Source: Craspedostauros australis (Eukaryota; Bacillariophyta; Bacillariophyceae; Mastogloiales; Achnanthaceae). From it: 64,000 nucleotides of DNA. A program made the position numbers and the translations under genes. The DNA lies in assembly GCA_026770025.1 (NCBI GenBank), contig JAMXDE010000027.1:744001-808000 (forward strand), in the 5' to 3' direction. The notes under the pieces were generated by a model. That model did no database searches. It saw nothing but the letters and a program-made list of their open reading frames with translations, and was not told the origin of the DNA. Of this stretch, positions 8,553-32,018 are shown one piece after another; position 1 is the stretch's first letter, and every line of letters begins with the position of its first letter.

Positions 8553-8817
8553 TGTCTCTCATGATGACCGCACATGTGGTTGGATGCTCCACACACAAGG
8601 TACGAACAACAACAGATCATATTACGGGACGTACAACACATCCTCATCCACTTCCCACACTCCTCGCACACTCCCGCCATCCATCCTCCATCATCTATCC
8701 TCCATCCTCAATCTCCCATTCTTCGACGACGTATCCGTATCCGCATCCAGCCCTGTGCCTTCCATCCTGGTATTCTTGTGGTACCACACCAGTACAGGAC
8801 GTCTGCACAATCTCATC

Positions 8818-10959
8818 ATGACACTGAGACGCAACCATCTGCTGTCTCCCCTCTCCATCATCCAGCTCGCACATGCCCTGCTGCTCATCGCCACGGATCT
8901 GTCGACTTCGATACAACCATTATCCATACCACTATCGTTGCCATCGTCATCAGCGCCATCGATAGGTGCATCGATAGGTGCATCGATAGGTGCATCGATA
9001 GGTGCATCGATAGGTGCATCGATAGGTGCATCGATAGGTGCATCGATAGGTGCATCGATAGGTCCATTGTTGGTGCAGGCAACAGAATCGGGAGGATTGA
9101 CAGCACGCAAACACAGGAGGAGGCGGAGATTCAGGCAGACAAGCAAACACACAAGTACGAGTACGAGTACAAGTACAAGTACAAGTACACACAAAGAATG
9201 GAAGCAAAGAGATGGACATGATGGTGATGATGATGATGCACCACCTGCACAGCCATACGAAGTCATTGATGATGATGATGATGAGACGGATGAAGATGAT
9301 GATCATGCTCTCGATTATATGAGCAACATGGACACACCCACCAAGCCAACCACCACATTCAAAAGAACATCACGGAACAGCTTCAAGGAACAGTGTCGTC
9401 TCTTCGTCGCGCCATCGACCATCCCCAACGCCGGACTTGGGATCTTCACAGGCATCGAGCTCGAACAGGATGACACCATCGGATACGCTGACATGGTCAT
9501 CCCCGTGCCAAAGATCGCATCCTCCATTCGCAATCCCATCGAGGACTACGCCTGGCATGGGCGCATCTACAGGGGGAGCATGGATGCCTTCGCACCGGGC
9601 TTTCTGTCCCTCATGAACAGCCACCTGCCCTTGCTCAACATCGGGCAGATAGAACCGGCCGCCAACGTCTTTCCGCAAGAGATGGATGCCACCAAGTACC
9701 ACTATCTACAGTCGATGGCTGAGGAGCATGTGCCACCCGGTGGAGAGCTGTTCACATTCTACGGCGATCATTGGTTCGAGGGACGGGATCGATACAAGGG
9801 ACGTCCCATGCGGTCCGATTTCAAGCAGGCGGAGGAGCTCACGAAGCGATTCCACTCGCTCGCACCTACCAACGCAACGCACGCCAGAGATCTGTGGAAG
9901 ATCATCCGTCGCTTCCCGTTCCGATCCCACACCCTCCAGGCCTTCCCCCACAAGTACGAATACGTGCATGATGTCGTCACGAACGGCGTCCGATCGCTGC
10001 ATCAGCCCTACGCGGTCCGAAGTGTCGAAGAGCTGATGTATGGTGACAACTCGCGTTGCTTGGACATGATCCGTCAGGGACCATCGAAGGTCCACAACCT
10101 CGGTGCGTTGGCCAACATGGCCATCAGCAGAGGCACCGTCATCACCGGTTCCCCGCTCATCGTCACCACCAAGGAGCGGATGGACAGCTACGGGCAAGTG
10201 TGGGATTCGTTCGTGAAGGACTACAGACCATCCAAGTCGACCCGTCACGAATACTCCCTCCTCATGAACTACTGCTTCGGACATGTGTCGAGCACCATCC
10301 TCCTGTGTCCGTACGGCATCGCCGTATCCTACATCAACCACAGCCGCAGACGACCGAACGTGGCCATACGCTGGACTCCCAACCACGAGCTCTCCCAGCT
10401 GGACTGGTCCTTCACACAGAGTCCACTGCGGCTGGCAGATCATCGGAATATCACCCTGTCGATGGACTACGTCGCAATCCGCGACATCAAGAAGGATGAA
10501 GAAGTCGTCATCGACTACGGCAAGGCGTGGGATCAGGCGTACAAAGGACACTCCAGGCAGCAGCTGCAGCCGTTGGCTGTGTCAGTCGAGAAGTACAACC
10601 ACCAGCCCGTCCTCCTCACCGAAGCAGAACAGCAGACTCTGCCATATCCCATCAACCTGGGCCTGCAATGTCACAGCAACATCCTGGACAGCCCGATGCA
10701 GTTCGTCAACAAGGATCTGTGGAAGAAGTCGTCGATTGGGTACGACTGTCAGATCCTGGAGCGCTATCAGCATCCGGAGCACCCCCAAGTGACCGTGTAT
10801 GCCGTGCGCATGATGGTGAAGGATACGTTCCGATCGTTGGGTGGGGTCCCTCGCGACTACGTCCGGTTCGTCGAAAAGGAGGTTGGGGAGGTGCCATTTC
10901 GATTTCCGATGCAGTTGCCGGACAAGATGGTGCCGAACGCTTGGCGGGATGCCAAGTAG
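8818..10959 (+). CDS. protein with two SET-like domains, copy 1
   Basis: This intronless gene encodes 713 residues. The ATG at 8818 is preferred because it gives a signal-like hydrophobic start (LSIIQLAHALLLIA) and has A at -3; the frame is open upstream but only weakly coding. Residues about 48-80 are IGAS repeats, followed by basic and Asp-rich low-complexity stretches. Residues about 190-320 look like a diverged SET fold (NAGLGIF at the start, GGELFTFYGDHW at the end). Residues about 425-570 are a clearer SET domain with YINHS and VVIDYGKAW, the usual NHS and substrate-tyrosine region. SET proteins transfer methyl groups from S-adenosylmethionine to lysine; the substrate here is unknown. 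A predicted signal or anchor segment is odd for a histone methyltransferase and suggests an organelle or secretory target. Confidence 0.85.
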   Translation: MTLRRNHLLSPLSIIQLAHALLLIATDLSTSIQPLSIPLSLPSSSAPSIGASIGASIGASIGASIGASIGASIGASIGASIGPLLVQATESGGLTARKHRRRRRFRQTSKHTSTSTSTSTSTSTHKEWKQRDGHDGDDDDAPPAQPYEVIDDDDDETDEDDDHALDYMSNMDTPTKPTTTFKRTSRNSFKEQCRLFVAPSTIPNAGLGIFTGIELEQDDTIGYADMVIPVPKIASSIRNPIEDYAWHGRIYRGSMDAFAPGFLSLMNSHLPLLNIGQIEPAANVFPQEMDATKYHYLQSMAEEHVPPGGELFTFYGDHWFEGRDRYKGRPMRSDFKQAEELTKRFHSLAPTNATHARDLWKIIRRFPFRSHTLQAFPHKYEYVHDVVTNGVRSLHQPYAVRSVEELMYGDNSRCLDMIRQGPSKVHNLGALANMAISRGTVITGSPLIVTTKERMDSYGQVWDSFVKDYRPSKSTRHEYSLLMNYCFGHVSSTILLCPYGIAVSYINHSRRRPNVAIRWTPNHELSQLDWSFTQSPLRLADHRNITLSMDYVAIRDIKKDEEVVIDYGKAWDQAYKGHSRQQLQPLAVSVEKYNHQPVLLTEAEQQTLPYPINLGLQCHSNILDSPMQFVNKDLWKKSSIGYDCQILERYQHPEHPQVTVYAVRMMVKDTFRSLGGVPRDYVRFVEKEVGEVPFRFPMQLPDKMVPNAWRDAK
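8957..9063 (+). repeat. in-frame 12-bp minisatellite encoding IGAS
   Basis: The unit ATCGATAGGTGC is repeated eight times plus a partial unit, all identical, in the SET gene. The inverted copy has only four. As the unit is 12 bp, length change keeps the frame. Confidence 0.95.
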
Positions 10960-11101
10960 GAGCATATTGTGGCAGTTTGTACGCATTGTGGGCAATGAGC
11001 AAAAGATGGAAGAAGGTATGGGCGCAGGTGCAGATGCAGATGCACATGTAGGTACTCTCCGAGAATTGCCTGCCAGTTCTTCATACTAGTTGTGGTACTC
11101 T

Positions 11102-11961
11102 GGTGCCTTCAAGAGCCAGACCAAAAAATTGGCGATTTTTGGCTACAGTTGGCTACAGATTTTGGATCAGTTTTTCCCAAACTCCGCCTTCGTTTTAGAG
11201 ACACTCAATCCAACATCTCTTCATATCTACGAAAACTCAAGAGCCAGGGCTATCCAGGCAAGTGATAACATTATAATGTTGTTACTACCATCTCGTCGAT
11301 CTTTTTGTGTTTGTTGACCCCCTTGGTGTGGTTCTGCCGTCGAACGACGGACAGACCGGTTGTTTTTTGGATATCGTTGGCTACAGTTGGCTACACGTAG
11401 AATTCTACAGGAGTTCGGTAGGATCTTGCTTCTTGTTTCGAGAAATTCGACCCTCCATCTTTGAAGTCTCCGCGCTGAGCATTCGTTGGCCCATTCGCAA
11501 CAATGCGTATCATTTTAGAATCCCCTCTCCGAGGCGGTCACAACCATATGATCTATACATTGTTGGATTGCCATGGTGTGTTGGTATGCTTGCGTTTAGT
11601 GTTCCCATGGAGGTCGGAACGATATTTGACCACTCGGATCCCCGATTTCGGTGGCTGTGCAGGTTTTCACGTGACCGGAGGTATTGGGGGTGAAACCTGT
11701 CTGTTCTGAAAATTATAACTGTGCGGAACGGTCATTTGCTCAACGTGGATCCTACACGTGGTTTGTGCGGTATCGTCTGTCCATCGACACCCATCGTTCG
11801 GATTCGGCCAGATTCGGGAATTGGCACTAAATCTGCACAGTGGCAAGTTTGGCGAATTCTGGTCCCAATGCTTGCGTCATCATGACGTCAGAGATGGTTG
11901 GAACACTGCTTTGGACCAATCAGAACAAGACAACATGCCAACCAGAAGCCAAAAAACGTCC
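11102..11961. other. intergenic, repeat-like
   Basis: No gene was recognised. The decamer GTTGGCTACA occurs in doublets near 11140-11160 and 11375-11395, each beside a T-rich run, so this may be remnant mobile DNA. Confidence 0.35.
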
Positions 11962-12238
11962 GTGAATGATGGGGGTGCTTGGCGGATCACATCAGTGCTC
12001 ACCGAGCAAGAGAGCAACAGCCACCAAACTTTAGGATTGTATATATAAACGCCATTTAATGATATAGAATCAAGATGAGTACAGGAACACTCACAGGAGC
12101 TGAGTGCGGAGAGTTGGACTACGGTTGACACCGTATCATTAAATGGCGTTTATATATACTATCCTAAAGTTTGGATGCTGTGGCTCTGTTTCTCGGCGAC
12201 TAATGATGCGATACGTCAAGCACCCTTGTCATTCACGA
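11962..12238. repeat. foldback element: long inverted repeat with conserved core
   Basis: The core arms 12024-12064 and 12134-12174 are 41 bp each and differ at one position. They face each other across 69 bp. Outside the core the arms continue imperfectly (roughly three quarters matching by eye) to about 11962 and 12238. The DNA or its transcript could form a hairpin of about 100 bp. It could be a MITE-like foldback element or a small-RNA precursor. No flanking target duplication was identified. Confidence 0.75.
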
Positions 12239-12485
12239 ATGCGTTTGACCATTCGAGACGTGTTTGGGAACCGCAGACACGTTTGGAGTCGTCAAAAACA
12301 TCAGGCATTTGGCACCAAGACAGCATCCTTGACTCGATTAGTGACTGAGTTAGTGTAGAACACACAGGTGAAGCTAGTTTACATCGTCATCACAGAGTGC
12401 TCTGCTTTGACAACAACAAAAATAGTAACATGGTGGCAGAGTACGAGCTAGAGCATGATAGTATGCGTTTCAATGTATGTGATAA
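12239..12485. other. 3' flank of gene B
   Basis: No gene was seen. A short piece near 12430 (ATGGTGGCAGAGT) resembles an initiator-tRNA primer-binding site of a copia element but has no supporting context. Confidence 0.3.
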
Positions 12486-13043
12486 TTAGACGACTTCACA
12501 GGCAGATGGGGATGGCCCAGGGCAGTCTGTGGCTGCGTCGTCGATTACGTACGTTTCTGTATCTGACGCACACAGTGATCCACTGGCGCATACGGTGCAG
12601 GCGTCTGCCGTGCAGACTCCTGCTCTAATGATGATGTCATTGGTTGCACTGTTGCTGTTGCCAAGGCTACTGCACGCATTCGCGCCCGAACAGGCACCGG
12701 TTTCGATGATCACACTTCCTGCGAATTTGCCTGAGGTACCAGCATGCAATTCTCGACAAGCGTTAGTCGATTTGCACGCATTCTTTCCGATGAAAATATT
12801 TGCCACGACTGGTGTCATAGTTGTAGACCCTTGGTTGACGCGCTGCGCAGCGCCACTGCATCCACCATTTGTATCGCATGCTCCTTCTTCCACTCGTATA
12901 TCGCCAAAGATATTCATTCCAATACCGTTGCAGCTCCGGTCCACAACACAAGCTCTTGGTCCGATCACCCGGAATCCGACTTTGGCATCAGCAGCTGGCT
13001 GATCTTCGAAGAAGTTGCCCAACCGAAAGCAAGAAGTGCCTCC
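12486..13043 (-). pseudogene. gene B, 3' part (C-terminal Cys-rich block) cut off by a copia insertion
   Basis: This reads on the minus strand to a TAA at 12486-12488 and matches the last third of gene A closely, for example KVGFRVIGPRAC, IFIGKNAC and ETYVIDDA. The Cys motif C-x-G-x-x-A-C recurs. The coding sequence stops being continuous at the left edge of the retrotransposon. The CCTCC at 13039-13043 is repeated at 22194-22198. This part now lacks its own start and is separated from the rest of the gene by 9.15 kb. Confidence 0.9.
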
Positions 13044-13730
13044 AGTTGAGATTCAATGAGGGACAGACTAGTACCGAACACGGTATCAACCCGATGGGAG
13101 AAATTCCTGTTTTGGCGCGAAATCTTCCGACTTGATTGACCACCAAACCTTTTTCTCCTCCTTTCTCTCCTCCATTCACGAATCCATCATGACTCAAACC
13201 TGACCGACCTGACTCACACCCCACCTGGGAACTATATGCTCTTCAGATCCTCCTTACTAAAACTTATCTCGATTCCTTCATTGCTGATGACCACCACACT
13301 ACCACCGTGGTCTCAGCATGCGTATCCAACTTGCTTCAACTCAAGCAATGGAATCCGAGTGTCAGCTTCAGCCACAGCCACTGCTTCATGACCGTCACCA
13401 CTGATTGTCATGACCTACACTGCAGTGTAACTACATGTGCGGAGAGCAAGGTACTGTATTGACTGTCTACTCTGTTGCACTGAATCAAGTGCATCAGTGC
13501 AGGGTCTCGCCAAGTTGTGTGGCATCGTTTCTTCACCCTACTAACACCAATAAGCTAACTCATAATAACGGACAAGGATTAGCTACAAAGCACTCTACTT
13601 CTCATCGTTACAAGTTATAACTATTCAAACAGCACACCTCTCTTGAACTGCATCACACGGCTATCCCGAAGCCGGCAGATTCACGAGGCATTCTCCACCG
13701 ATTCGCGACGCCTACGCACGAATCCTAACT
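13044..13730 (+). repeat. left LTR of the copia element
   Basis: This 687-bp copy starts AGTTGAGATTC and ends CCTAACT. It matches 21507-22193 throughout by eye. A TATA-like CTATATG near 13232 may belong to its promoter. Confidence 0.93.
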
Positions 13731-13749
13731 GGTAGCTGCGAGTGGTTGC
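13730..13749 (+). other. primer-binding site of the copia element
   Basis: TGGTAGCTGCGAGTGGTT begins at the last base of the left LTR. It resembles the complement of the 3' end of initiator methionine tRNA (TGGTAGCAGAGGATGGTT), the usual copia primer. The match is imperfect and recalled from general knowledge. Confidence 0.6.
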
Positions 13750-14157
13750 CAAATACTCTCTTATCAACTCCACCGAGCATCTTCCTCTGCCAACCGATCG
13801 CAAGAGTCTCTCTGAGACGAAGCCAAAAGGCACAGCTCGAAGACCGAGCTTCCAACAAGGACCACGTCCTCACCGCATGCATCTGATCTGAAATCAGATC
13901 CCCACCGCTCGAAAACCGAGCCACTCAAGAGGACAAAAGTCCCAGCTGAAGGTAAGCGACCCAAGGTCGAACTTCAGTAGCCTCTGCCAAAGCAAGCAAT
14001 AACCGCACTCGCCGACCGAGTGCGAGCCCCTCCAAGCCTGCATCGAACTTCAGTGCACACCTTCCCAACGAAGTGAAGTCGAGCAAGAGCAAGAGAAGGC
14101 AAACAGATCGATCCCCTCGAAGTCCGAAGACTATTCGAGAAGTCCCCGTCATCCATC

Positions 14158-17100
14158 ATGGCGGAAGAGACAACTCCTGCCACGCTGGAAGAGCTGCAAG
14201 CGCAGCTCGAAGCGATCACGGTCGAGAACGCTCGCCTCACACAGGCGACGTTGGCGGCCGAAGCCGCTGCAGAAGCAGCAAACGCGGCCATAGCCACTGC
14301 CCAAGCAGCGGCGACAGCCACCACGACCCCAAGCCGTCCCGGTCTCGAGCGCAGCCGCTCCGCTGGCGACACAAGACCTCGAACGGAACAGTCCTTCCTC
14401 GGCGACAGCATCTTCGACATGGAAACCCCCATGCCCAAGAAGAGCAGAAAGTCAGAAGAGGACAGCGAAGACGACGACCACGACCTCTCTGGGAAACCAA
14501 CCGTTCCCATCATGGGAGGTATCCTCAAGCAAGGACGCAACTGGGTGCCCTGGACCGCAGGCGCGCCGAACGGGCATTGGACGGGCCTCCAAGACGAGTC
14601 ACACACCAGGTGGACCAACTCTCAACAACAGAGAATCCTCCATAACGGTGCTGACTCAACCAACCAGTCCAAGCGAGAGCAAGGACTCACCGACAAGTTC
14701 AAGAAAGGAGGGAACATCCAGCAGTTCATTCGCCTGGTGCGAAACCACATGGCAAGAACCGGACTCCTCACCATGGCGTACATCGCTGACGCCAACGCAG
14801 AGTCAGGAATGACTTGCGTCTTGGACTCACCAGCCGCCTTCACTCTTGAAGATGCCACCAAGCACTTCGACGAGTTCCATCTGAAGTGGGATCACTACGA
14901 CGTCCAGAACAACGAGACAGCCTCAGCGTTCTTCCGTGACAGTCTTGATCCAGCCCTCGAAGACCAACTCATGAACCGAATCGAGCCGAAGTTCCACGAT
15001 AACTTCATCACTCTCTTCGTTGAGTTCATGAACAGCAACTCGGCCAACTCCTTGGATGAACAAGACGCCCTCGCAGCCAAGATCCGCGAAGTCAACTGCA
15101 GACGTTTTCCAAACGAGAACGTTGGTCTCATGGCAGTCCACCTCCGTGCTCTTTGCAAGCGCCTCGACGACGCCGGTCGCTTCGACCTTCGTCTCCTCCG
15201 AACGATCCTCGACGCCTTCCTGCAGGCTGGAGGACAGATCCGGTCTGGTGAACAGTACCGACGTCCTCTCTATGTGATGAAGGATAACCTTGAGGAAATC
15301 CTCATGCGTCTCCCCGTCTTCACGTACGAGTACGCTCGCCCCCAGCTTGCCGCAAAAGATCTCACATGGATGGCAATCTGCAACAAGGCCGAGGCGTCGT
15401 ACGAAAACGAAGTGCGCGGAAATCGCTGGCATGCCATCAGGCGTACCAGAGACAGCAACGTGCCCAGGTACTCGTACGCCAACAACGCCGTCCAGAATCC
15501 AAGCGCCAACGTTCTCGAGCAACACAAGGGTTTCTCCAAGAACGACGGAAGGAGAAACAACTTCAAGAAGCCCAAGGAACGCGACGCCAAACGCAACGCC
15601 AGCCAGGGCTGGTCGTCCAAAGCTCCCAAGCCCGGTGAACCACAGCGCAAGCTTGTCAACGACAAGACTTTCATGTGGTGCGCCAAGTGCCGCCGCTGGC
15701 GTCTCTCGCACAACACTGAGAGTCATCAGGACAACTTCAAGTTCAAGGCGAAGGCAAAGGGCAAGCAAGCTCCCAAACAGGACAACCTCTCCATTGACAT
15801 GGCTGCGTGGACATGCTTCACAGCCGCCTCCAGTCAAGACGAAGACACCTGGTGGTCTCTCGTCTGGAACCTCTTCACCTCCTTCAACTACTTCGGTAGC
15901 ATCGTTGGAATGGTTCTCCTCTTCGCCTCACTCCAAGTCATCACTATCGGAGTAGAGTATGGGTGGTACATCGCGGCAGCAAATGCCTGGATGCTAATTG
16001 CCGTAACTCTACTACTCCTCCACACGAACGTACCACGAAGACCTGACTCAATCAACTCTGCTGATCTAGTCTACAACAAGGCACGAGTCAAAGAACGGTA
16101 CAAGCAAGTGCATAAACGTCCAACACACTTCAATGGAGCCGTGAAACGCAGTCTCTACGATCTCGTAATGGAAAGTCTCGACCCAGATGGACCCAAACCC
16201 GTGAACGTGTCGAAAGGAAACTCCCCACGAACAAAACGTGTGTGGCGTCCCCAGGCTCGGACCAAAACTCGCAATCACAGATCAAAACGTCGTCACTGGA
16301 ACCAATCGAAAAATTCCACTTATGGTAAAAACCAAACACCCACGACAGCAAAATTGCCCCGCCAAGAAGGTCGCACCTCATCCATCTCACGAAATCTCTG
16401 GAGCCTGTACCCAACTCGCGGAATTGACTTGATGTATGATCGAAGTCAAAAGCAACAATGTGACAATGACATGCCCGCACTACTCACTCTGCAAGGTCTA
16501 GCCTCCTTCTTCTCCAATCGCAATGCTTTCGCATCTCCAGCTAAAGCTGAGAGTTATCTCTCACCCGATGCTCCATTCGAACTCGTTTGGGACAGCGGAG
16601 CATCAATTTCTGTGACAAATGACCTCAACGATTTCTGTTCTACTCCAAGTCCTCCACCAAGACCGACCTTTCTCAACGGATTCCTCAAGAAAATCCAAGT
16701 GAATGCGTTGGGAACCGTCGAATGGTATGTCCTTGATGTAACTGGAAGCCCTCGCAAATTGCGACTGCCTGCTTTCCATGTTCCCGAATCAAAGGTCAAG
16801 CTAATCAGCACTTCCAGTCTCCTTGAAGAGTATCAGGGCGAAACGATCGTTTTCAACAAATCCTCCTGCAAACTCAGCGGAATCCTGGGAAACGACGATC
16901 GCAACGCAATCGTAGCGAATTACAAGAAGTCCACAAGGCTACCAACATCAGTCGGCTACAGTGCCGACAACATCCATGACGTGCCAGCTGCACTAACTTC
17001 CATCGTCTCCACCGTGTCGGACCACAACGTGAACCTCACCCAACCGCAAAAGGAACTTCTTCGGTGGCACTATCGTCTCGGACATTTATCCTTCAGTCGA

Positions 17101-20100
17101 GTGAAGTTCCTGCTGCGTTCGGGTACTCTCACCGGGTCAGAATCGTCTAGAAAGATGCACACAGCTGCGGCAAGGGTCACAAGCCTCCCGCTTTGCGCTG
17201 CATGCCAATTCGGAAAGCTGCACCGTCGCCCTTCCCCAGGAATAACTCAACATGTCGTCCGTGACAAACAAGGAGTTTTGCGCACCGATCACTTGTTCCC
17301 TGGACAACAAGTATCAGTGGACCACTTCGTCGGTCGAACGCCAGGACGCCTCTTCTCAGGACGAGGCAAAGGCGATCCAAACGAAATGTACAAAGGCGGA
17401 GCCATCTTTGTCGATCACGCATCAGGATACATTCACGTGGAACCTGTGGCAGCGCTAACCACGCACGCCACCCTCGAAGCCAAGGAACGGTTCGAACTGA
17501 TGTGTCGTGATGTTGGAGTCCCCGTACGATCGTATCTATCAGACAACGCCACCACCTTCACCTCACCCGAATACTCCAAACACCTTGAAATCTTCCATCA
17601 AGTCCATCGATTCGCAGGTGTCGGCGCACATCACCACAACGGAATAGCCGAGCGAAGCATTCGAACAATTGTCTCAATGGCCCGAACCATGATGATGCAT
17701 CAAAGCATCCACTGGCCAACGATGTTTGATGCTCAACTATGGCCAATGGCCGTCGTACACGCCGCGTACATCTACAATCGCGTGCCTAATCCCGCCACCG
17801 GTCTCACACCCTACGATGTTCTATCACGCATCCGTCTTCCCCTCAAGCAACTTCATAACCTGCACGTATGGGGCAGTCCAGTCTATGTCCTTAACAAAGC
17901 GCTGGCCGATGGACGCAAGATACCCCGATGGGAACCAAGAGGAGAGAGATACGTGAACATGGGTCTCTCTACGAAGCATGCTTCAACCGTACCTCTAGTC
18001 CTATCACCACGGACAGGTTCAATCACCCCTCAGTTCCACGTCGTGTTCGATGACTGGTTCGCAACGATTGCTACCGACTTGAAGCAACTTCCAAGCTATC
18101 AATCGGAAGAATGGACTCGCATGTTTGGTGACACCACCTTCCAATATCCATTCGATGACGACGATGTGGAATCAATGGAGCAGGACGACATCTTCGCATC
18201 AGACACGCGAGACCACAACCGGTTACAACGCAACGACGATAACACTCCACCACCGAGTTTTGATACGCGAAACCAACAAACCATCCGTGAAAGAACGCCA
18301 CAGGTATTGGCGAAAGGGTCGCAACCAATGACACAACAGATCCCCGATCTCATGAGTGAAGCTCTCGCCCCTCCGATGCCAGTTTCAGAGGGAGCCAACA
18401 GGCAAATGTCCTCGACAGAGGGAGCTCCCGATGAGTCCCCGGTACCTGACTCTACTATAGAGTCACCGGATCAGCGAACACTTCAACCGCAATTGAGCTC
18501 ACCTCTCCGAGAATCACCAACATTGGAATTAGCAACTCCATTACCACTTCCAGCTCCGACGCCAATTCAGACGAGCTCCACGCCACCCATGATACCTAAG
18601 TCTGAGCCAACGCCAGAAAGACCTCAAAGCACGAGAATTCGCAAACAACCAAAGCGATTCACGTACGCACGTATGGGAGGCAAAGCAGCCTGGCTGGACG
18701 ACGAAGACACCGATGATTACTACTTCTGCCCTGCAGTAGCTACCTTGGAAGAGATCGAACAGGCCGCAACACCCAGGGAACTGCACCCCGACTCATCATC
18801 GATCATCACATTCTCACAAGCTATCGTCGATTGCTTACATACAATCGAACCTCTCCAACGCAAAGGTAGCGACTCTCTCTCCATCGATCTACACCAATTC
18901 AAGGTGGACGCTCACTACTTGTTGCGCAGACTCCGAGGTCGATTCAACACCTTGAATCCACAGCCAACCAACGTCGTCCTCCCAACGTTCGCTCCAAAGG
19001 CGGCTGAAGTAGAAGAAGCAAGCATCAACATGGCTGACTGGTGGCAACCGGACCCCGACAACATGACCGAGGAAGGAGCGACTCCATTTCAGGAGACGTA
19101 CAACAACTTTCACTCGGACATGGAGGACCATTTCGAGAAAGACCTCAACAGCGTCTTTCTCAACGAAGACCTCCTCCGACTGGCCACTGACCACGCCGTC
19201 GAGCAATTCGTGGAGAAGCTGAGCACCTTCATCAGTACTGGCACGATGGAACCCCACTTCGACGCTCTCGACTTCATGTCCAAGGCCAAATCAGGGCCAT
19301 GGTACTACCAAGACCCCGAACATTTGATGAACCAAGGGTACCTTCCACCCAAATCTGCGTACAACGCAGAAGCGTTCGTCCAAAGGACTCGCTCCGTGTG
19401 GAATGCGATGATCGAAAATCATCATTACCGTCTCGCATTCGAGCTACTCCGTCGCCAAGTGACGACGATCCGACCAGGACCGTGGCCACTTCCAAGCGAA
19501 TACGAGATTGAGCAATTCGTCCAAGGCATGATTGAGTCGAACACGGCGCCACTCACTTCGGCCCCAGCGACTCGCTCCGCCAACAAAGGATCCATGCTCG
19601 ACATCGACTCGTCATCCACGCTCGACATCAACCCGTCGTTCATCCTCGACACAGCGAAGTGCATTCCACCAACTACATGGGCGAACATCGAACAGCATGC
19701 CTACTCTGTCGCAATCATCGAGCCACAGAAGGATGCAACAAACTACCCCACCTACGTCGATAATCGCATGATCAGCTACTTTGCCGCAGGTGGCGACTTG
19801 GAGATCGCCGAACGCACCTCGGTGTACAAGGCATCCAACACCGACCCGGATACTCTCTCCTTCGACGAAGCCATTCGCGACGACAACAAAGACGAGTGGA
19901 TGCAAGCCGCCGAAAAGGAGATTCGAGATCTCACGGAAAAGGGCACGTGGGAGGAAGTGAAGAAGATCGACATCAAGAACGATCGCATCTTTCCAGGAAC
20001 CTGGGTCTTTCGCCGCAAGCGCCTCCCCGACGGAACCATCAAGAAATACAAGGGACGCTGGTGTTGCCGTGGAGACCTCATGCAAGAGGACTCCTCCACC

Positions 20101-21423
20101 TACGCACCAGTCGTCGCATGGTCATCCGTCCGCATCTTCCTCAGCACTTCCATCGTCATGGGTTGGACAACAACGTCCATCGACTTCACGAACGCTTTCG
20201 TGCAAGCATCCATCCACAAGCCAGTCTACCTTCATCTCCCTCGTGGATTCAAATCAACGAAGGGTCCCGACACCTGCCTCAAGCTCCGCAAGAGCCTGTA
20301 CGGCTTGACGATTGCTCCTCGCCTCTGGTATGAACACCTCATCCGAGCCCTCACTACGATCGGCTTCAAGGCCTGCGACCAAGAGCAGTGCTTGTTCATC
20401 AAGAAGGACATCATGATCGTCCTCTACGTTGACGATGCGGGCATCGCCTCCAAGACCAAGCAAGCCGCCGACGACTTCATCAAATCAATGCGCGACCTCG
20501 GCTTTGAGCTCACCCAAGAAGGAAGCTTCACCGAGTTCCTGGGAATCGAGCTCAGCCGTGATCCAAAAGCAGACACGGTCCATCTCCGCCAACCAGGACT
20601 AATCAAGAAGATCCTCGCCACTACGAAGATGACGAACTGCAGTCCGTGCCCCGTACCAACTACGCAGCTCGCACTGGGACAATGCAAGCATGAGCCTCCC
20701 ATGAACGAACCATGGAACTACCGCTCCGTCGTCGGCATGCTGTTGTATCTCACGACCAACACTCGCCCCGACCTGGCATTCGCAGTCTCCCAAGTCGCTC
20801 GCTTCGGAAGTGACCCTCGCCGCTCACACGCCAAGGCCGTCAAGCGCATCATGCGCTATCTCAAGCACACTGAGGACAAGGGTACCATCGTGCGTCCCAC
20901 CGGGCAGCTTGATCTCAAGTGCTACGTGGATGCAGACTTCGCAGGACTCTACGGACGAGAAGACAGCAAGGACCCCGTCTCAGTCAAGTCGCGCACTGGC
21001 TACCTCATTACGCTGGGAGGGTGCCCCCTCATTTGGAAGTCCAAACTCCAAACTGAGATTGCTCTATCTACGATGGAGTCCGAGTACGCCGCTCTCTCTC
21101 TCGCAATGCGCACGCTGATTCCCATTCAACAGCTCATCCGCCAAGTCATCAACAATGCCGGCACCACCATGCCACTGCACACCAACCTCCAGTGCACGGT
21201 GTTTGAGGACAACCAAGCCTGCATTTCCCTTGCTACCAATCATCAACCAACCGCGCGCACCAAGCACTTCCTGACTAAGTGGCACTTCTTTTGGTACTGG
21301 GTCAAGGCAGGGTTCATCTACATCCAGCACATCGCAACACCGGAGCAACTGGCCGACATCTTCACCAAAGGACTGTCCATCGCAGTCTTCGAATACCTGC
21401 GATTCAAGATCATGGGTTGGTAA
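14158..21423 (+). CDS. copia Gag-Pol polyprotein
   Basis: One frame encodes 2,421 residues. The ATG at 14158 follows a leader of about 430 nt. The Gag part starts with an Ala/Glu-rich coiled-coil-like segment and has one Cys/His cluster near 15680 (CAKCRRW). Two hydrophobic segments follow at about 15880-16030. The protease motif DSGAS is at 16591. The zinc-binding start of integrase lies at about 17060-17215 (WHYRLGH, CAAC). The integrase core follows (VDHFVG, LSDNATTF, HHHNGIAER). A long variable Pro/Ser linker comes next. Reverse transcriptase spans about 19.97-20.7 kb with YVDD near 20428. RNase H ends the frame (YVDADFAG, MESEYAAL, LADIFTKG). Gag and Pol are fused without a frame change. 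Confidence 0.95.
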   Translation: MAEETTPATLEELQAQLEAITVENARLTQATLAAEAAAEAANAAIATAQAAATATTTPSRPGLERSRSAGDTRPRTEQSFLGDSIFDMETPMPKKSRKSEEDSEDDDHDLSGKPTVPIMGGILKQGRNWVPWTAGAPNGHWTGLQDESHTRWTNSQQQRILHNGADSTNQSKREQGLTDKFKKGGNIQQFIRLVRNHMARTGLLTMAYIADANAESGMTCVLDSPAAFTLEDATKHFDEFHLKWDHYDVQNNETASAFFRDSLDPALEDQLMNRIEPKFHDNFITLFVEFMNSNSANSLDEQDALAAKIREVNCRRFPNENVGLMAVHLRALCKRLDDAGRFDLRLLRTILDAFLQAGGQIRSGEQYRRPLYVMKDNLEEILMRLPVFTYEYARPQLAAKDLTWMAICNKAEASYENEVRGNRWHAIRRTRDSNVPRYSYANNAVQNPSANVLEQHKGFSKNDGRRNNFKKPKERDAKRNASQGWSSKAPKPGEPQRKLVNDKTFMWCAKCRRWRLSHNTESHQDNFKFKAKAKGKQAPKQDNLSIDMAAWTCFTAASSQDEDTWWSLVWNLFTSFNYFGSIVGMVLLFASLQVITIGVEYGWYIAAANAWMLIAVTLLLLHTNVPRRPDSINSADLVYNKARVKERYKQVHKRPTHFNGAVKRSLYDLVMESLDPDGPKPVNVSKGNSPRTKRVWRPQARTKTRNHRSKRRHWNQSKNSTYGKNQTPTTAKLPRQEGRTSSISRNLWSLYPTRGIDLMYDRSQKQQCDNDMPALLTLQGLASFFSNRNAFASPAKAESYLSPDAPFELVWDSGASISVTNDLNDFCSTPSPPPRPTFLNGFLKKIQVNALGTVEWYVLDVTGSPRKLRLPAFHVPESKVKLISTSSLLEEYQGETIVFNKSSCKLSGILGNDDRNAIVANYKKSTRLPTSVGYSADNIHDVPAALTSIVSTVSDHNVNLTQPQKELLRWHYRLGHLSFSRVKFLLRSGTLTGSESSRKMHTAAARVTSLPLCAACQFGKLHRRPSPGITQHVVRDKQGVLRTDHLFPGQQVSVDHFVGRTPGRLFSGRGKGDPNEMYKGGAIFVDHASGYIHVEPVAALTTHATLEAKERFELMCRDVGVPVRSYLSDNATTFTSPEYSKHLEIFHQVHRFAGVGAHHHNGIAERSIRTIVSMARTMMMHQSIHWPTMFDAQLWPMAVVHAAYIYNRVPNPATGLTPYDVLSRIRLPLKQLHNLHVWGSPVYVLNKALADGRKIPRWEPRGERYVNMGLSTKHASTVPLVLSPRTGSITPQFHVVFDDWFATIATDLKQLPSYQSEEWTRMFGDTTFQYPFDDDDVESMEQDDIFASDTRDHNRLQRNDDNTPPPSFDTRNQQTIRERTPQVLAKGSQPMTQQIPDLMSEALAPPMPVSEGANRQMSSTEGAPDESPVPDSTIESPDQRTLQPQLSSPLRESPTLELATPLPLPAPTPIQTSSTPPMIPKSEPTPERPQSTRIRKQPKRFTYARMGGKAAWLDDEDTDDYYFCPAVATLEEIEQAATPRELHPDSSSIITFSQAIVDCLHTIEPLQRKGSDSLSIDLHQFKVDAHYLLRRLRGRFNTLNPQPTNVVLPTFAPKAAEVEEASINMADWWQPDPDNMTEEGATPFQETYNNFHSDMEDHFEKDLNSVFLNEDLLRLATDHAVEQFVEKLSTFISTGTMEPHFDALDFMSKAKSGPWYYQDPEHLMNQGYLPPKSAYNAEAFVQRTRSVWNAMIENHHYRLAFELLRRQVTTIRPGPWPLPSEYEIEQFVQGMIESNTAPLTSAPATRSANKGSMLDIDSSSTLDINPSFILDTAKCIPPTTWANIEQHAYSVAIIEPQKDATNYPTYVDNRMISYFAAGGDLEIAERTSVYKASNTDPDTLSFDEAIRDDNKDEWMQAAEKEIRDLTEKGTWEEVKKIDIKNDRIFPGTWVFRRKRLPDGTIKKYKGRWCCRGDLMQEDSSTYAPVVAWSSVRIFLSTSIVMGWTTTSIDFTNAFVQASIHKPVYLHLPRGFKSTKGPDTCLKLRKSLYGLTIAPRLWYEHLIRALTTIGFKACDQEQCLFIKKDIMIVLYVDDAGIASKTKQAADDFIKSMRDLGFELTQEGSFTEFLGIELSRDPKADTVHLRQPGLIKKILATTKMTNCSPCPVPTTQLALGQCKHEPPMNEPWNYRSVVGMLLYLTTNTRPDLAFAVSQVARFGSDPRRSHAKAVKRIMRYLKHTEDKGTIVRPTGQLDLKCYVDADFAGLYGREDSKDPVSVKSRTGYLITLGGCPLIWKSKLQTEIALSTMESEYAALSLAMRTLIPIQQLIRQVINNAGTTMPLHTNLQCTVFEDNQACISLATNHQPTARTKHFLTKWHFFWYWVKAGFIYIQHIATPEQLADIFTKGLSIAVFEYLRFKIMGW

Positions 21424-21497
21424 TAACCAACAACAACAAACAACAACGAAGGATGAAGTTTTCATCGATACCACAACTCCAATCACGACCCAACACT

Positions 21498-21506
21498 GAG
21501 AGGGAG
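21498..21506 (+). other. polypurine tract of the copia element
   Basis: GAGAGGGAG lies directly before the right LTR, the expected place for plus-strand priming. Confidence 0.75.
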
Positions 21507-22193
21507 AGTTGAGATTCAATGAGGGACAGACTAGTACCGAACACGGTATCAACCCGATGGGAGAAATTCCTGTTTTGGCGCGAAATCTTCCGACTTGATT
21601 GACCACCAAACCTTTTTCTCCTCCTTTCTCTCCTCCATTCACGAATCCATCATGACTCAAACCTGACCGACCTGACTCACACCCCACCTGGGAACTATAT
21701 GCTCTTCAGATCCTCCTTACTAAAACTTATCTCGATTCCTTCATTGCTGATGACCACCACACTACCACCGTGGTCTCAGCATGCGTATCCAACTTGCTTC
21801 AACTCAAGCAATGGAATCCGAGTGTCAGCTTCAGCCACAGCCACTGCTTCATGACCGTCACCACTGATTGTCATGACCTACACTGCAGTGTAACTACATG
21901 TGCGGAGAGCAAGGTACTGTATTGACTGTCTACTCTGTTGCACTGAATCAAGTGCATCAGTGCAGGGTCTCGCCAAGTTGTGTGGCATCGTTTCTTCACC
22001 CTACTAACACCAATAAGCTAACTCATAATAACGGACAAGGATTAGCTACAAAGCACTCTACTTCTCATCGTTACAAGTTATAACTATTCAAACAGCACAC
22101 CTCTCTTGAACTGCATCACACGGCTATCCCGAAGCCGGCAGATTCACGAGGCATTCTCCACCGATTCGCGACGCCTACGCACGAATCCTAACT
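21507..22193 (+). repeat. right LTR of the copia element
   Basis: This 687-bp copy is identical by eye to the left LTR. The CCTCC target duplication follows at 22194-22198. Confidence 0.93.
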
Positions 22194-24340
22194 CCTCCCT
22201 TACAACTGTCAAGGATGATTGCGTTGGGATATGTGAACTTGCATGCGTTTTTCCCAGAACATGATCCTGAGGTCACCGTCATGACACCACCATTCGTAGA
22301 GTCAATGGTGCAAGCAGTAGTGCCGCTGCAGCATGAGCCACCACACGCTGTCGCCACCACACCCGGGCTACCAGTGAAGATCTTCGTGTTTTCCTTCGCG
22401 ATGGCCAACAATGCGTTGGTCACACTTTCGACATTCTTGATCTTGTTAAAGCGTTCCTGCGCCACATCCACTGTCACAGGCTGTGGGGGGTTTGCATCAT
22501 TGCATCCAAAGATGCTCTTGATCATCTTCCCCTTGATGCCAACAAGCTCAAGCTCGGCAAGGAAGTTTGCGCATGATCCCGTCGGAGAATCACATACGGG
22601 ATCGCTGCCAATCTCATTGTATGTTGATTCGACATCTCCAGGGGTGCTAAGACACCCAAAGTTGAAGGGGGCTGCTATTGGAGCTGCCGTCGGATCTGAT
22701 GTAGGAGCTGCCGTCGGAGCCGATGTGGGAACTGTTGGGGCTGATGTAGGAGCTGACATAGGGGCCGATGTAGGAGCCGATGTAGAACCTGAAGTGGGGG
22801 CTGATGTGGGAGCTGACGTGAGAATCGTAGGGAAAGGAGTGGGAGAAAAAGTCGGAGAGTCTGTGGGCAAGGTGTCCTTGCCAATACAGTACTCATTCAC
22901 TTTGTCACCAGTAGGATTGCCCCCGGAGCTGCTGCCTCCCTTTGGACAGGCCCCATCGACATCGCTGATGAAGTAGAATTCATCAGGGCTGCACTCGTCC
23001 TTCGTCATGCATCCTCTGCAGCCTTTGGCATCGCCGCATCCACCAGGAGGGACGATGATGTCCGTCCTCATCATGTCATTCAAGCCCATCTTCTCACATG
23101 ACCCATCGGCGGCACAGCCACCAGCACCAATGGTGAGGCTGCCTGCCGGCTTCCCACCAGTACCATAGTTGACAGTGGAATGGGCATCCTCGCAGGCATT
23201 GCTGCCCACGCACGCATTCGCCCCGATGTCGATGTGGCTGCGGATGCGGATGAGGCCCTTCTGTGCGACGCGGCGGCCGGCTGAGCTGCATGCGTCTAAT
23301 CCGATGCATGCGCCAGTCTGGATGGTGACATCGCCATGGGAACGGCGTCCCACTCCCTCACAAGATTGAGGGGTGGTGCATGCCATCTCACCGACGAAGG
23401 TGACTCCTGTGATGGACGGATTGATTTCATTTTCGTTCATCAACTTGCATGCGCTGTCTCCAGTGCAGGAGGAATCGAGAATGAGGGGATTGGGCCCCAT
23501 ATCCTTGCAGGCGCTGTCGCCAGTGCATGATGTGATCGCGACGGTCATGAATGGAGGAGAGTTGGAGGCGGAACCGGTGACTGAAGTGCATCCCGAGGGT
23601 CCTTGGCAGCATGGGTCTGCGACGACAGGCGATTGCATCGCAGCGATGGCCACGCATGCTTCCTTCATGGCATCCGGACGTTCGGTGACGAGGATCGCGT
23701 TGGTGGCAGCAACCAGGGCCAATTGGCCAGCAAGGATGTCGCTGGATGCGTACTTGTTGAAGAGCTTGCGTGCAGCTCCTTCGCCGAGGTCTCCTGCGCA
23801 TCCGAAGAAGTTCTGCAATTGCTCGGATTCCCTCACGGCAGTCACGGCCTCGCGGCAGGATGGCTTGTTCGCATCGCAGATAATAGTCTTGCCGCTTGTT
23901 TCTTGTGATGAGAGGTCGGTGATTCCATCGGGCTCGCAAAAAACTTCGATGGTGGAATCGAAGATGGCTGGAGCGGCTGTTGGCTTTGATGTTGGCAGGA
24001 GAGTTGGTTGAGAGGTCGGCGAAGAGGTTGGCTGGGCCACAGGCGTCATCGAGGGCATCTCCGAAATCAAGCCTGTCGGCGGTCCAGTGGGCAATGCGGT
24101 TGGCGCGATTGTTTCTGGATCAACCGGGTTCTCAGTGGGTGGCACTCGTTCGCCCTTGTTTTGTTTCGCCGCCTTCGCGTTGTCATCAGCGCCGTCCTTG
24201 AGGGCGCGGATCTTGTTCATCGCCGTGCGGAGTTCCTTGGTTGGGTCCAAGGGGGTCCTGTTGCCGCGCAGCACAGCGTGGACCGTTGCCGTGTCGACGA
24301 GAGCGAGAAAAGCGACGAAGGCTGCCTTGATGTAGATCAT
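22194..24340 (-). pseudogene. gene B, 5' part: Cys-rich repeat surface-type protein split by the copia insertion
   Basis: The ATG at 24338-24340 gives a signal peptide (IYIKAAFVAFLALVDTA). A Thr/Pro-rich segment and a helical module (AVRESEQLQNFFGCAG) follow. Then come the C-x-G-x-x-A-C repeats, a Thr/Ser/Ala-Pro linker of S-A-P-T units, and the start of the second module (KGKMIKSIFGCND). Gene A is closely similar throughout, though its linker is built from P-S units. About 715 residues precede the insertion. The frame then runs a few residues into the LTR and stops, so any product lacks the last Cys-rich block and would be expected to be defective. Paralogs A and B likely share a secreted or cell-surface role; the function is unknown. 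Confidence 0.9.
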
Positions 24341-25319: not shown

Positions 25320-25489
25320 CCCTTGGTGGGGATGAGAAGAAAGACTGAGATTTGATGCTATCACGTGACGAAGGGAACAACACGTCCATTTGGATGGTAC
25401 AAATTTTAGCTTGATGCAGGGCACGATACCGCACCATAACATACGATACGATACGATAGATGCGAACCTCTTTGTTCTTAGTGTGGGTG

Positions 25490-26447: not shown

Positions 26448-26582
26448 TGTGAAACACCAAGTTGCCGCACCTCCCAAGAATGTGGAGTTGAGCATTGTGG
26501 AATGATATATTACCGCACCTCCCAATAAGTCAAGAGTGAGGAGTCGAATGTCATGAAATGCTACATTACCGCAACGCCCACC
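26448..26582. repeat. degenerate tandem repeat of about 60 bp
   Basis: Three diverged copies carry the common phrase TNCCGCACCTCCCAA and a preceding TGAAA or TGGAAT. No coding potential was seen. Confidence 0.55.
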
Positions 26583-27359: not shown

Positions 27360-27812
27360 CTTTGTTGATGCTGATCATGCAGGTGACCGCGTCACGCGAC
27401 GTTCACGCACTGGTGTGCTCTTGTTTTTGAATACGTCACCAATACTGTGGTACGCAAGAAACAGAACAGCATTGAGACATCCACATTCGGCAGCGAGTTC
27501 ATGGCGCTCAAGATAGTAACCGAGATCATCATTGGAATGAGATACAAGCTTTGCATGATGGGTATCCTGCTGGATGGACCCACGGACGTACGTGTTCACA
27601 ATCAAAGTGTGGTGTACAACTCATCATTACCAGAATCACAACTATGGAAGAAAGCCAATGCCATCGCCTATCACTTCGTAAGAGAAAGCATCGCTGCGGG
27701 TACCCTGGTAGTCCAACATGAACCATCAGAGACCAATCTATCCGACATGCTCACGAAGCCACAACAAGGACCGAGACAAAAAGAACAAGCACAACGGGTC
27801 CTCTTTTGACCT
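27360..27812 (+). mobile_element. broken copia remnant, RNase H end
   Basis: Sequence typical of the C-terminal RNase H end of copia Pol is recognisable (DADHAG, SIETSTFGSEFMALK, LSDMLTKP). The remnant is broken and has no recognised LTRs. It differs clearly from the whole element at 13-22 kb and so belongs to another, older lineage. Confidence 0.8.
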
Positions 27813-29564
27813 CGGCGCTGCGCAATAGCACCCAAGGGTGGTCAACCATGAGCTCTGTTCATGGTTGATGGGGTGAGTACCCTGTGGTGTCCATACATGG
27901 GGCATGCAGCAGGTACATCCCGAATACAACCAAAATGTGACGATACGACGGCCAGCAGAGCCACCGCGGATCGAGGGGACCAAACCGGGATATGTGTGAA
28001 ACCGTTGAGCAAGCGTTACACGGTAAACACGTGCACCAATCACGAACGACACAACATCAAAGCAGTTGCACAGACTCGTACGACATCGATAAGACTCATA
28101 ATCTGCATCTTTACCTCTTTTCATCTTAATTTGGTTTCACGTGTGTAATAACTTGGTACGACCTATTATATTATAGTTTATGATGCAATGCAGGTGCAGA
28201 TAAGCACTTGTCATCTTCGACGCTCGTTCGTCGACGTCCCAATCAGAGTTGCTCTTCCGTTTGCTCTCCGTCATTGACGAATGAGAGGAGGAATGTTGAG
28301 GACGAATGTTGAGGACGACCGTCGCCAGATGCAAACCCACAAGAACACTTGACCAGCATGGGCACACGGACACATGGGTGCTTGGGCGCATGGCTGACTT
28401 GATTTCCAAAGAGGAAGAGACGGCTGGCAGTAGAAGGTATGATTGGTCCATGGCAATGTTGTTGGCAATGCATCTTGCGGCTGACCACCTCGTGCCATGA
28501 TTTACGTACAAGTACTACGAATATGTGAGTGGAAAGGGAGCACCTGGACAGTGGGGGTATGGTAGGGCGAAGCGCAAAGCGTGACAAGTCGGGGAAAGGC
28601 GCCCAAAGAAGATAAGGAAGGAGAGGAAAATGTATGAGTAGGACATGGTGGGGTAGTAGAGATGAAAGGCGGATGTTGTCTACAACCATGCTGGTGCGAT
28701 TATGTATTCATTTATGGTATGGTATGGTATGGTATGGTATGGTATGGTACAGATACGAATAAGAGTGCGTCTGGTTCCAAGGAGACGAGTGCGACGGTAC
28801 AACTGCAAACAGGGGTGGAATGGGGAAGCGTGTTACAAAGTGATGTGAGTCCTCACGTCAAAACGTATAGATATTTTGATTCGATGCCGCTGATTGTCCC
28901 GGTCTTTGACCGAGGACATCAAACAATAGCTTATATTATACAGAGAAGATTAGCATGGTCTCTGAGCAAGAATGACACGCATAATCGAAGAGAAGCAAAC
29001 CTTTTTTTTGCACCCCGACCCGATTCCCAACAGCGCGACCTCACTCAGCGGGGTCTCACGAGTACATGAACTGTTCCAACGTACATCTGCATCATAGAAT
29101 ATAATGGATCGTACTCATCCCAACCAACCCAGCTGGGTACAACACACTGCACAACACCGACACGAAGATCATTCTATGGTATTATGTACGAGCAAGGTGC
29201 AATTGAGTACTTTTTCGTCTCTTGCCTCCCACCACCTCGTGCGAATACTCGACAGCATTGCCACACTTTTGGCGGTGTGTGCCGTGCCGGTACGAATATA
29301 GTTGCGGTATATTCTATTATATGTTCGTGCTTTGGCTGGTACAAACTGAAACTCAAACATTGCCATCCAGCATTGCCATCCACAGTCCCCAATCACACTG
29401 TTGTGTACGCTGCCCTGCACATTGCCATGTGCCAATGATGCTGCTCTGCAGGTCCGTTTCGTCTCGCTCCTCTCTGTCAACCATCGGTCACTTGCTTCCA
29501 TAGTTCACACCGTTCTCTCCGCACCCACTCCATCTTTCCACATCATTCTCGTGCCATCCGTACT
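27813..29564. other. intergenic with a (GGTAT)n microsatellite
   Basis: The run GGTAT repeats six times at 28716-28745. The first few hundred bases may be the 3' flank of the broken copia remnant. No gene was recognised. Confidence 0.4.
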
Positions 29565-29712
29565 AGAGTACCACAACTAGTATGAAGAACTGGCAGGCAA
29601 TTCTCGGAGAGTACCTACATGTGCATCTGCATCTGCATCTGCACCTGCGCCCATACCTTCTTCCATCTTTTGCTCATTGCCCACAATGCGTACAAACTGC
29701 CACAATATGCTC

Positions 29713-31806
29713 CTACTTGGCATCCCGCCAAGCGTTCGGCACCATCTTGTCCGGCAACTGCATCGGAAATCGAAATGGCACCTCCCCAACCTCCTTTTCG
29801 ACGAACCGGACGTAGTCGCGAGGGACCCCACCCAACGATCGGAACGTATCCTTCACCATCATGCGCACGGCATACACGGTCACTTGGGGGTGCTCCGGAT
29901 GCTGATAGCGCTCCAGGATCTGACAGTCGTACCCAATCGACGACTTCTTCCACAGATCCTTGTTGACGAACTGCATCGGGCTGTCCAGGATGTTGCTGTG
30001 ACATTGCAGGCCCAGGTTGATGGGATATGGCAGAGTCTGCTGTTCTGCTTCGGTGAGGAGGACGGGCTGGTGGTTGTACTTCTCGACTGACACAGCCAAC
30101 GGCTGCAGCTGCTGCCTGGAGTGTCCTTTGTACGCCTGATCCCACGCCTTGCCGTAGTCGATGACGACTTCTTCATCCTTCTTGATGTCGCGGATTGCGA
30201 CGTAGTCCATCGACAGGGTGATATTCCGATGATCTGCCAGCCGCAGTGGACTCTGTGTGAAGGACCAGTCCAGCTGGGAGAGCTCGTGGTTGGGAGTCCA
30301 GCGTATGGCCACGTTCGGTCGTCTGCGGCTGTGGTTGATGTAGGATACGGCGATGCCGTACGGACACAGGAGGATGGTGCTCGACACATGTCCGAAGCAG
30401 TAGTTCATGAGGAGGGAGTATTCGTGACGGGTCGACTTGGATGGTCTGTAGTCCTTCACGAACGAATCCCACACTTGCCCGTAGCTGTCCATCCGCTCCT
30501 TGGTGGTGACGATGAGCGGGGAACCGGTGATGACGGTGCCTCTGCTGATGGCCATGTTGGCCAACGCACCGAGGTTGTGGACCTTCGATGGTCCCTGACG
30601 GATCATGTCCAAGCAACGCGAGTTGTCACCATACATCAGCTCTTCGACACTTCGGACCGCGTAGGGCTGATGCAGCGATCGGACGCCGTTCGTGACGACA
30701 TCATGCACGTATTCGTACTTGTGGGGGAAGGCCTGGAGGGTGTGGGATCGGAACGGGAAGCGACGGATGATCTTCCACAGATCTCTGGCGTGCGTTGCGT
30801 TGGTAGGTGCGAGCGAGTGGAATCGCTTCGTGAGCTCCTCCGCCTGCTTGAAATCGGACCGCATGGGACGTCCCTTGTATCGATCCCGTCCCTCGAACCA
30901 ATGATCGCCGTAGAATGTGAACAGCTCTCCACCGGGTGGCACATGCTCCTCAGCCATCGACTGTAGATAGTGGTACTTGGTGGCATCCATCTCTTGCGGA
31001 AAGACGTTGGCGGCCGGTTCTATCTGCCCGATGTTGAGCAAGGGCAGGTGGCTGTTCATGAGGGACAGAAAGCCCGGTGCGAAGGCATCCATGCTCCCCC
31101 TGTAGATGCGCCCATGCCAGGCGTAGTCCTCGATGGGATTGCGAATGGAGGATGCGATCTTTGGCACGGGGATGACCATGTCAGCGTATCCGATGGTGTC
31201 ATCCTGTTCGAGCTCGATGCCTGTGAAGATCCCAAGTCCGGCGTTGGGGATGGTCGATGGCGCGACGAAGAGACGACACTGTTCCTTGAAGCTGTTCCGT
31301 GATGTTCTTTTGAATGTGGTGGTTGGCTTGGTGGGTGTGTCCATGTTGCTCATATAATCGAGAGCATGATCATCATCTTCATCCGTCTCATCATCATCAT
31401 CATCAATGACTTCGTATGGCTGTGCAGGTGGTGCATCATCATCATCACCATCATGTCCATCTCTTTGCTTCCATTCTTTGTGTGTACTTGTACTTGTACT
31501 TGTACTCGTACTCGTACTTGTGTGTTTGCTTGTCTGCCTGAATCTCCGCCTCCTCCTGTGTTTGCGTGCTGTCAATCCTCCCGATTCTGTTGCCTGCACC
31601 AACAATGGACCTATCGATGCACCTATCGATGCACCTATCGATGCACCTATCGATGCACCTATCGATGGCGCTGATGACGATGGCAACGATAGTGGTATGG
31701 ATAATGGTTGTATCGAAGTCGACAGATCCGTGGCGATGAGCAGCAGGGCATGTGCGAGCTGGATGATGGAGAGGGGAGACAGCAGATGGTTGCGTCTCAG
31801 TGTCAT
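29713..31806 (-). CDS. protein with two SET-like domains, copy 2
   Basis: The 697-residue product is the same as that of the gene at 8818-10959 except for four missing IGAS units (16 residues). The start codon at 31804-31806 is equivalent. Both SET-like domains and the YINHS and VVIDYG motifs are kept, so this copy also looks functional. The genomic flanks differ on both sides, and the upstream 200 bp differ by small insertions and deletions. The two copies may therefore be expressed differently. It is intronless like its twin. Confidence 0.85.
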   Translation of the reverse strand: MTLRRNHLLSPLSIIQLAHALLLIATDLSTSIQPLSIPLSLPSSSAPSIGASIGASIGASIGASIGPLLVQATESGGLTARKHRRRRRFRQTSKHTSTSTSTSTSTSTHKEWKQRDGHDGDDDDAPPAQPYEVIDDDDDETDEDDDHALDYMSNMDTPTKPTTTFKRTSRNSFKEQCRLFVAPSTIPNAGLGIFTGIELEQDDTIGYADMVIPVPKIASSIRNPIEDYAWHGRIYRGSMDAFAPGFLSLMNSHLPLLNIGQIEPAANVFPQEMDATKYHYLQSMAEEHVPPGGELFTFYGDHWFEGRDRYKGRPMRSDFKQAEELTKRFHSLAPTNATHARDLWKIIRRFPFRSHTLQAFPHKYEYVHDVVTNGVRSLHQPYAVRSVEELMYGDNSRCLDMIRQGPSKVHNLGALANMAISRGTVITGSPLIVTTKERMDSYGQVWDSFVKDYRPSKSTRHEYSLLMNYCFGHVSSTILLCPYGIAVSYINHSRRRPNVAIRWTPNHELSQLDWSFTQSPLRLADHRNITLSMDYVAIRDIKKDEEVVIDYGKAWDQAYKGHSRQQLQPLAVSVEKYNHQPVLLTEAEQQTLPYPINLGLQCHSNILDSPMQFVNKDLWKKSSIGYDCQILERYQHPEHPQVTVYAVRMMVKDTFRSLGGVPRDYVRFVEKEVGEVPFRFPMQLPDKMVPNAWRDAK
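31609..31668 (-). repeat. IGAS-coding minisatellite, short allele
   Basis: Four units of the 12-bp repeat plus a variant unit occur here, against eight in the other copy. Confidence 0.93.
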
Positions 31807-32018
31807 GATGAGATTGTGCAGACGTCCTGTACTGGCGTGGTACCACAAGAATACCAGGATGGAAGGCACAGGGTGCTGGATGCGGATACGTCGTCGAAGA
31901 ATGGGAGATTGAGGATGGAGGCTGGATGATGGAGGATGGATGGCAGGAGTGTGCAAGGAGTGTGGGAAGTGGATGAGGATGTGTCGCACCACATGTGCGG
32001 TCATCGTGAGAGGAGAGA

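Follow-up and report, generated by a model that had tools for sequence, protein, structure and literature searches.

A substitution-free gene body beside a diverged 5' edge in two inverted SET-domain genes of the diatom Craspedostauros australis: a candidate case of gene conversion between paralogues

Detailed comparison of two inverted SET-domain genes in the diatom Craspedostauros australis revealed that the differences between them are distributed very unevenly, with a gene body free of substitutions and a short 5' edge that carries all of them. The contrast between edge and body favours, without proving it, the conversion of an older duplicate, and we consider it probable, although far from certain, that the pair is an older inverted duplication in which ectopic gene conversion has recently replaced the gene body of one copy.

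Results

Position, extent and copy number of the pair

The two genes were found in a stretch of 64,000 bp (C25:744001-808000, hereafter the window) of a genome of 74.8 Mb in 90 contigs. Self-BLAST of the window aligned positions 8636-11104 with 31984-29562 in inverted orientation (97.3% identity over 2,476 columns, gaps counted), and base-by-base alignment extended the homology outward, through short matches, to 8553 and 32018. The left arm of the inverted repeat, the SET-A block, occupies 8553-11101 on the forward strand and the right arm, the SET-B block, 29565-32018 on the reverse strand, with one gene per arm, the two genes facing each other across a spacer of 18,463 bp. This agrees with the first-pass annotation of the window, which had described a reverse-complement pair about 18.5 kb apart with unlike flanks on both sides. 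In particular, the sequences outside the block scored no better than crude two-base-block shuffles (n = 100), which matched the 5' score in 45 of 100 cases and the 3' score in 40 of 100. Searched against the whole genome, the SET-A DNA matched two places only, SET-A and SET-B (two candidates, both scored). An allelic copy on another contig was considered and rejected, the 6.3-kb block to the right of SET-B matching only itself and one 58-bp stretch (two candidates, both scored).

Distribution of differences along the block

The substitution-free tract spans 8789-11101 in SET-A (forward strand) and 29565-31835 in SET-B, with 0 substitutions in 2,265 aligned columns, starting 29 bp before the Met codon shared by both open frames (8818 in SET-A) and ending 142 bp past the stop codon. 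Only two indels interrupt it, both in tandem repeats, namely one of 48 bp in an array of 12-bp units (8957-9067 on the forward strand in SET-A, 9.2 copies; 31605-31667 in SET-B, 5.2 copies) and one of 6 bp at 11028. The 5' edge (8636-8788 in SET-A, forward strand; 31836-31984 in SET-B) harbours all five substitutions of the block (8665, 8675, 8696, 8698 and 8788) and two indels, of 6 bp and 2 bp, within 147 columns, and still further out, at 8553-8635, a short match is interrupted by a length difference of about 52 bp. The copies had been called essentially identical apart from repeat length, a description that fits the gene body and fails at the 5' edge.

None of 20,000 uniform Monte Carlo placements of five substitutions produced a clean run as long as the tract, under a null with a uniform substitution rate throughout the block, the 5' edge being probably non-coding. 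Fisher tests gave p = 8e-7 for the edge versus the tract (5/147 and 0/2,265, boundary chosen post hoc) and p = 7e-4 for the edge versus synonymous sites alone (0/~483); since the boundary was set after inspection, the Monte Carlo result is the fairer figure. Such a sharp change in divergence within a shared homology block, here with a post hoc boundary, is the pattern by which gene conversion between paralogues is recognised.

Protein constraint was considered as the cause of the identity and proved insufficient, as none of the ~483 synonymous sites had changed and the 142 bp of 3' non-coding DNA were likewise clean. Fourfold sites of SET-A display only a mild bias (C120 G111 A77 T35; n = 343), which, together with the non-coding DNA inside the tract, argues that selection at the protein level fails to explain it. 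Should the mutation rate given for Phaeodactylum (4.77e-10 per site per generation; PMC6604790) apply here, the edge would represent ~3.6e7 generations of divergence, against no more than ~1.4e6 for the tract.

The SET genes and their protein

Counted from the shared Met, the presumed start codon, the coding region of SET-A runs from 8818 to 10959 on the forward strand, within an open frame from ATG 8584, and that of SET-B from 29713 to 31806 on the reverse strand, within an open frame from ATG 32004. The two open frames are unlike upstream of the shared Met, which makes 8553-8788 more likely 5' non-coding DNA. Because the tract spans the coding region, the proteins read from the shared Met are identical except for 16 residues in an IGAS repeat.

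Pfam analysis assigned the C-terminal half of both proteins to the SET family PF00856 (43.5 bits for SET-A and 43.7 bits for SET-B; cut-off 22.4) and reported no SET domain for the N-terminal half. NH and YG are core SET motifs, and the corresponding residues N328, H329, Y388 and G389 of the 534-residue fragment bearing the C-terminal SET are conserved without exception in the 15 members aligned, SET-B included; the 14 other aligned members share 25-35% identity with the SET-A/SET-B pair. A protein search of the genome with the SET protein yielded 25 matching stretches, the best of which outside the window had 36% identity. The two halves of the protein were aligned with each other by hhalign (probability 97.6, E 3.6e-12, 138 columns), whereas control alignments of each half with the tail gave probabilities of 0.2 and 0.1. 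This homology bears out the earlier label of a double-SET gene, and on the profile alignments the protein is best described as a predicted degenerate SET-like half followed by a canonical SET domain. The pair thus resembles other PF00856 proteins in a C-terminal half that scores above the cut-off and in its structural matches, and differs from them in the degenerate half placed ahead of the canonical domain.

The AlphaFold model of SET-B residues 230-763 had a mean pLDDT of 76.4 and a pTM of 0.70, and its best Foldseek matches were SET domains, e.g., vSET and MLL1 (best E 7e-7, matching half unspecified); the SET protein returned no match at E 0.1 among PDB sequences. An N-terminal hydrophobic stretch, seen by eye in several SET members, could be a signal peptide.

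Transposon at the 3' boundary

The 3' limit of the SET-A homology coincides with the left end of a transposon copy (11101-12303, forward strand; right limit approximate). To the right of SET-A lies sequence that recurs across the genome as a dispersed family (40 scored of 244 candidates), and when the query began inside the SET gene, 24 of the 39 other copies scored started at 11093-11103 and 15 further in (40 scored of 158 candidates, window copy included). Inverted termini with TA on both sides, as expected of an inverted-repeat transposon with a TA target, were seen in 3 of 3 fetched copies, and we take such an element to be of the Tc1/mariner-like MITE type. The left end of the window copy reads TG, and no right end was recognised for this copy. 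The boundary dinucleotide is this TG at SET-A and a bare TA at SET-B, TA making up 2.4% of the dinucleotides of the window. On the simplest reading, the transposon would have inserted at a TA downstream of SET-A, thereby cutting the homology short, and the A of this target would have changed since. Against this step, a simple insertion predicts that the 3' flank of SET-B resumes behind the transposon; it was searched for in the window and not found, and more must therefore have happened at this boundary.

The transposon copy contains an imperfect palindrome of 277 bp (11961-12237), whose predicted fold is far stabler than shuffles (z = -17.3). Two other copies (L063, C20:1079801-1081300; L064, C13:1743801-1745300) are 99.9% identical over 973 bp, and nine copies of the element tie in search score among the matches listed. 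As judged from these sequences, the TA-flanked family has probably been mobile recently.

The spacer and its neighbourhood

A second gene and a retrotransposon had been placed between the SET copies, and this was substantiated: the spacer holds a DUF7640 gene with a copia-type LTR retrotransposon inside it. The element (13044-22193, forward strand) encodes RVT_2, has identical LTRs of 687 bp (13044-13730 and 21507-22193) and is bordered on either side by CCTCC (13039-13043 and 22194-22198); it separates the 5' part of the DUF7640 gene (22194-24340, reverse strand) from its 3' part (12512-13001). In at least 19 places in the genome, including the window, two LTRs lie at a spacing of exactly 8,463 bp and match the window LTR at 1235-1240 of 1240 bits (40 scored of 371 candidates). 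The identical LTRs and the many near-perfect pairs of the same spacing point to a very recent retrotransposon burst. The inverted arms could, in principle, let the 18.5-kb middle flip by recombination, as the first-pass annotation had proposed.

The DUF7640 family is large and dispersed in this genome (40 scored of 1,438 candidates). A larger inverted duplication that included them was rejected, since gene A (86-2533, forward strand) and the split paralogue (reverse strand) are only 67-77% alike, in three pieces, and since the order of the DUF7640 genes relative to the SET genes is incompatible with one inverted duplication. The region behind SET-B contains a dispersed repeat, as well as a stretch with at least two further copies on C33 (27400-28156 and 28181-29040; 40 scored of 115 candidates). 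The gene adjoining SET-B (33617-34963) matched the core domain of class II tRNA synthetases, and the gene after it matched a DEAD-box helicase; overall, repeats prevail on the left side of SET-B, with ordinary single genes on the right.

Other paralogues in the genome

Clean tracts beside diverged stretches were also found in other gene families, in paralogues picked for equal or near-equal search scores and hence not a random sample. Three light-harvesting genes (L047, L048 and L049) lie on C3 at 1.69, 1.75 and 1.80 Mb, 50-60 kb apart and in alternating orientation, and are 98.4-98.9% identical by BLAST. Their longest clean runs of 695, 657 and 1,069 bp were reached in 0.42, 0.78 and 0% of 5,000 uniform placements, respectively. 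The coding regions differ at 0-1 of 591 positions and the 300 bp behind them at 0 of 300, versus 1, 5 and 6 of 300 immediately upstream of them; in the 300 bp beyond that, L048 and L049 are identical (0/300), both comparisons with L047 being left out as the stretch overruns the end of homology. No substitutions separate L048 from L049, which are inverted relative to each other, at 2599-3630 (the coding region and 428 bp behind it) or at 3703-4770; outside these two stretches, 23 were counted (2,648 columns). Codon usage in the trio is strongly biased, with C65 T19 A19 G1 at the fourfold sites of L047; the argument from the coding regions is weaker for it, and that from the non-coding DNA is unaffected. 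One light-harvesting protein matched multi-domain LHCI chains best (9vfj), and its best single-domain match was the fucoxanthin chlorophyll a/c protein 8iwh (E 4.9e-32), presumably a diatom entry; we also take the protein to carry a plastid-targeting motif.

Seven further light-harvesting copies form two arrays of opposite orientation on C2, ~350 kb apart. In the 21 pairs compared, coding divergence was 1.6-4.1% and that of 300-bp flank stretches ranged from 0 to 20.8%; two copies of one array differ at 0 of 300 positions just upstream and at 46 of 297 in the next 300 bp, and many upstream stretches are unremarkable, with 5-11%. An eighth copy, on C13, has flanks that are 24-48% different and no clean tract. 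Finally, a pair of DUF7640 genes in direct orientation on C6 (L052/L053) shows no substitution at 1607-2761 (1,155 bp, one 15-bp gap), followed by 45 substitutions, a clean run that appeared in none of 5,000 uniform placements. Patchy homogenisation is thus not restricted to inverted pairs, and these comparisons do not single out inverted orientation as a factor.

Discussion

Origin of the pair

The first-pass annotation had offered a recent duplication or gene conversion, and these are the options between which the evidence has to be weighed. A single, recent event that duplicated the whole block in inverted orientation, and in which error-prone repair or template switching left a cluster of errors at the 5' junction, would account for an identical body, for the genome holding two copies only, and for differences that are found at one end, by the breakpoint, and include the length change of ~52 bp. 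It requires, however, five substitutions and at least three indels in ~240 bp in one event, and the tract is clean up to the end of homology on the 3' side, with no counterpart of the 5' cluster. Since the edge differences are few and a single genome was compared, we give a duplication with a damaged junction real weight, although we think it unlikely. The confinement of surviving differences to ~240 bp of one edge could alternatively reflect the assembly, if collapse, or polishing with ambiguously mapped reads, had erased differences except near unique flank. Such an artefact should have spared substitutions at the 3' edge, which also borders unlike flanks and has none; moreover, two internal indels survive, and the L052/L053 pattern is reversed, with a clean edge and a different interior. 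These three points make the artefact improbable. The size of the block, about that of one transcript, and the lack of an obvious intron in either copy would suit the retroposition of a spliced transcript, yet inspection by eye found neither a poly(A) stretch nor a target duplication flanking either block, and the similarity extends upstream of the shared Met; we regard this origin as scarcely credible.

Conversion of an older duplicate would instead proceed as follows. An inverted duplication, which we infer to be older, gave rise to both SET genes, and their 5' edges would have drifted apart by substitutions and indels. A TA-flanked transposon would then have landed 142 bp behind SET-A and shortened the shared 3' end, as the bare TA in SET-B suggests. 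One SET copy may subsequently have served as repair template for the other, in an ectopic, non-crossover conversion between inverted copies, which would have overwritten ~2.3 kb between a point slightly upstream of the shared start codon and the edge of the transposon. The whole-unit differences between the tandem arrays in the tract might be due to slippage after the event or to incomplete transfer. The uneven distribution of differences, the boundaries and the copy number are observed; the age of the duplication, the conversion and its direction, and the place of the transposon insertion in this order are what we infer.

Conversion is further supported by the clean tracts beside diverged stretches in L048/L049, in the C2 light-harvesting array and in L052/L053. 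On the other side, the edge amounts to five substitutions with a boundary picked after viewing, homology stops at the transposon, so that there is no diverged 3' edge, and the older age of the duplication is judged from two copies in one genome that has no third close copy. A broader proposal, that gene conversion acts generally and continually in this genome among copies that are not adjacent and often inverted, and so keeps light-harvesting and SET pairs identical, with transposons setting tract ends and middles able to flip, appears doubtful to us.

Comparison with known systems

The closest diatom parallel is that of the silicon transporter genes SuSIT1 and SuSIT2 of Synedra ulna, two identical copies ~5.2 kb apart, for which a very recent duplication, in particular gene conversion, has been proposed (excerpt of PMC6114903). 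The SET pair is likewise a pair of gene copies in a diatom, with bodies identical apart from repeat length, and it differs in its diverged edge, the same excerpt giving neither such an edge nor the orientation of the SuSIT copies (PMC6114903). According to that excerpt, diatom genomes had by 2018 yielded no case of non-crossover gene conversion as far as its authors knew (PMC6114903). Among titles and abstract openings, mostly from outside subscription journals, we found no diatom study that dealt with conversion between inverted paralogues of the nuclear genome. If confirmed, the SET pair would provide a clean example from nature of inverted paralogues undergoing gene conversion in a photosynthetic alga, and identity between paralogues in such a genome would not date their duplication.

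The palindromes of Y chromosomes are said to undergo ectopic (interlocus) gene conversion between inverted paralogues. Like them, the SET pair consists of inverted copies with near-identity limited to the arms and with unlike flanks; unlike them, it has arms of one gene in length, separated by an 18.5-kb spacer and diverged at the 5' edge, and lies on an algal contig that is not a known sex chromosome.
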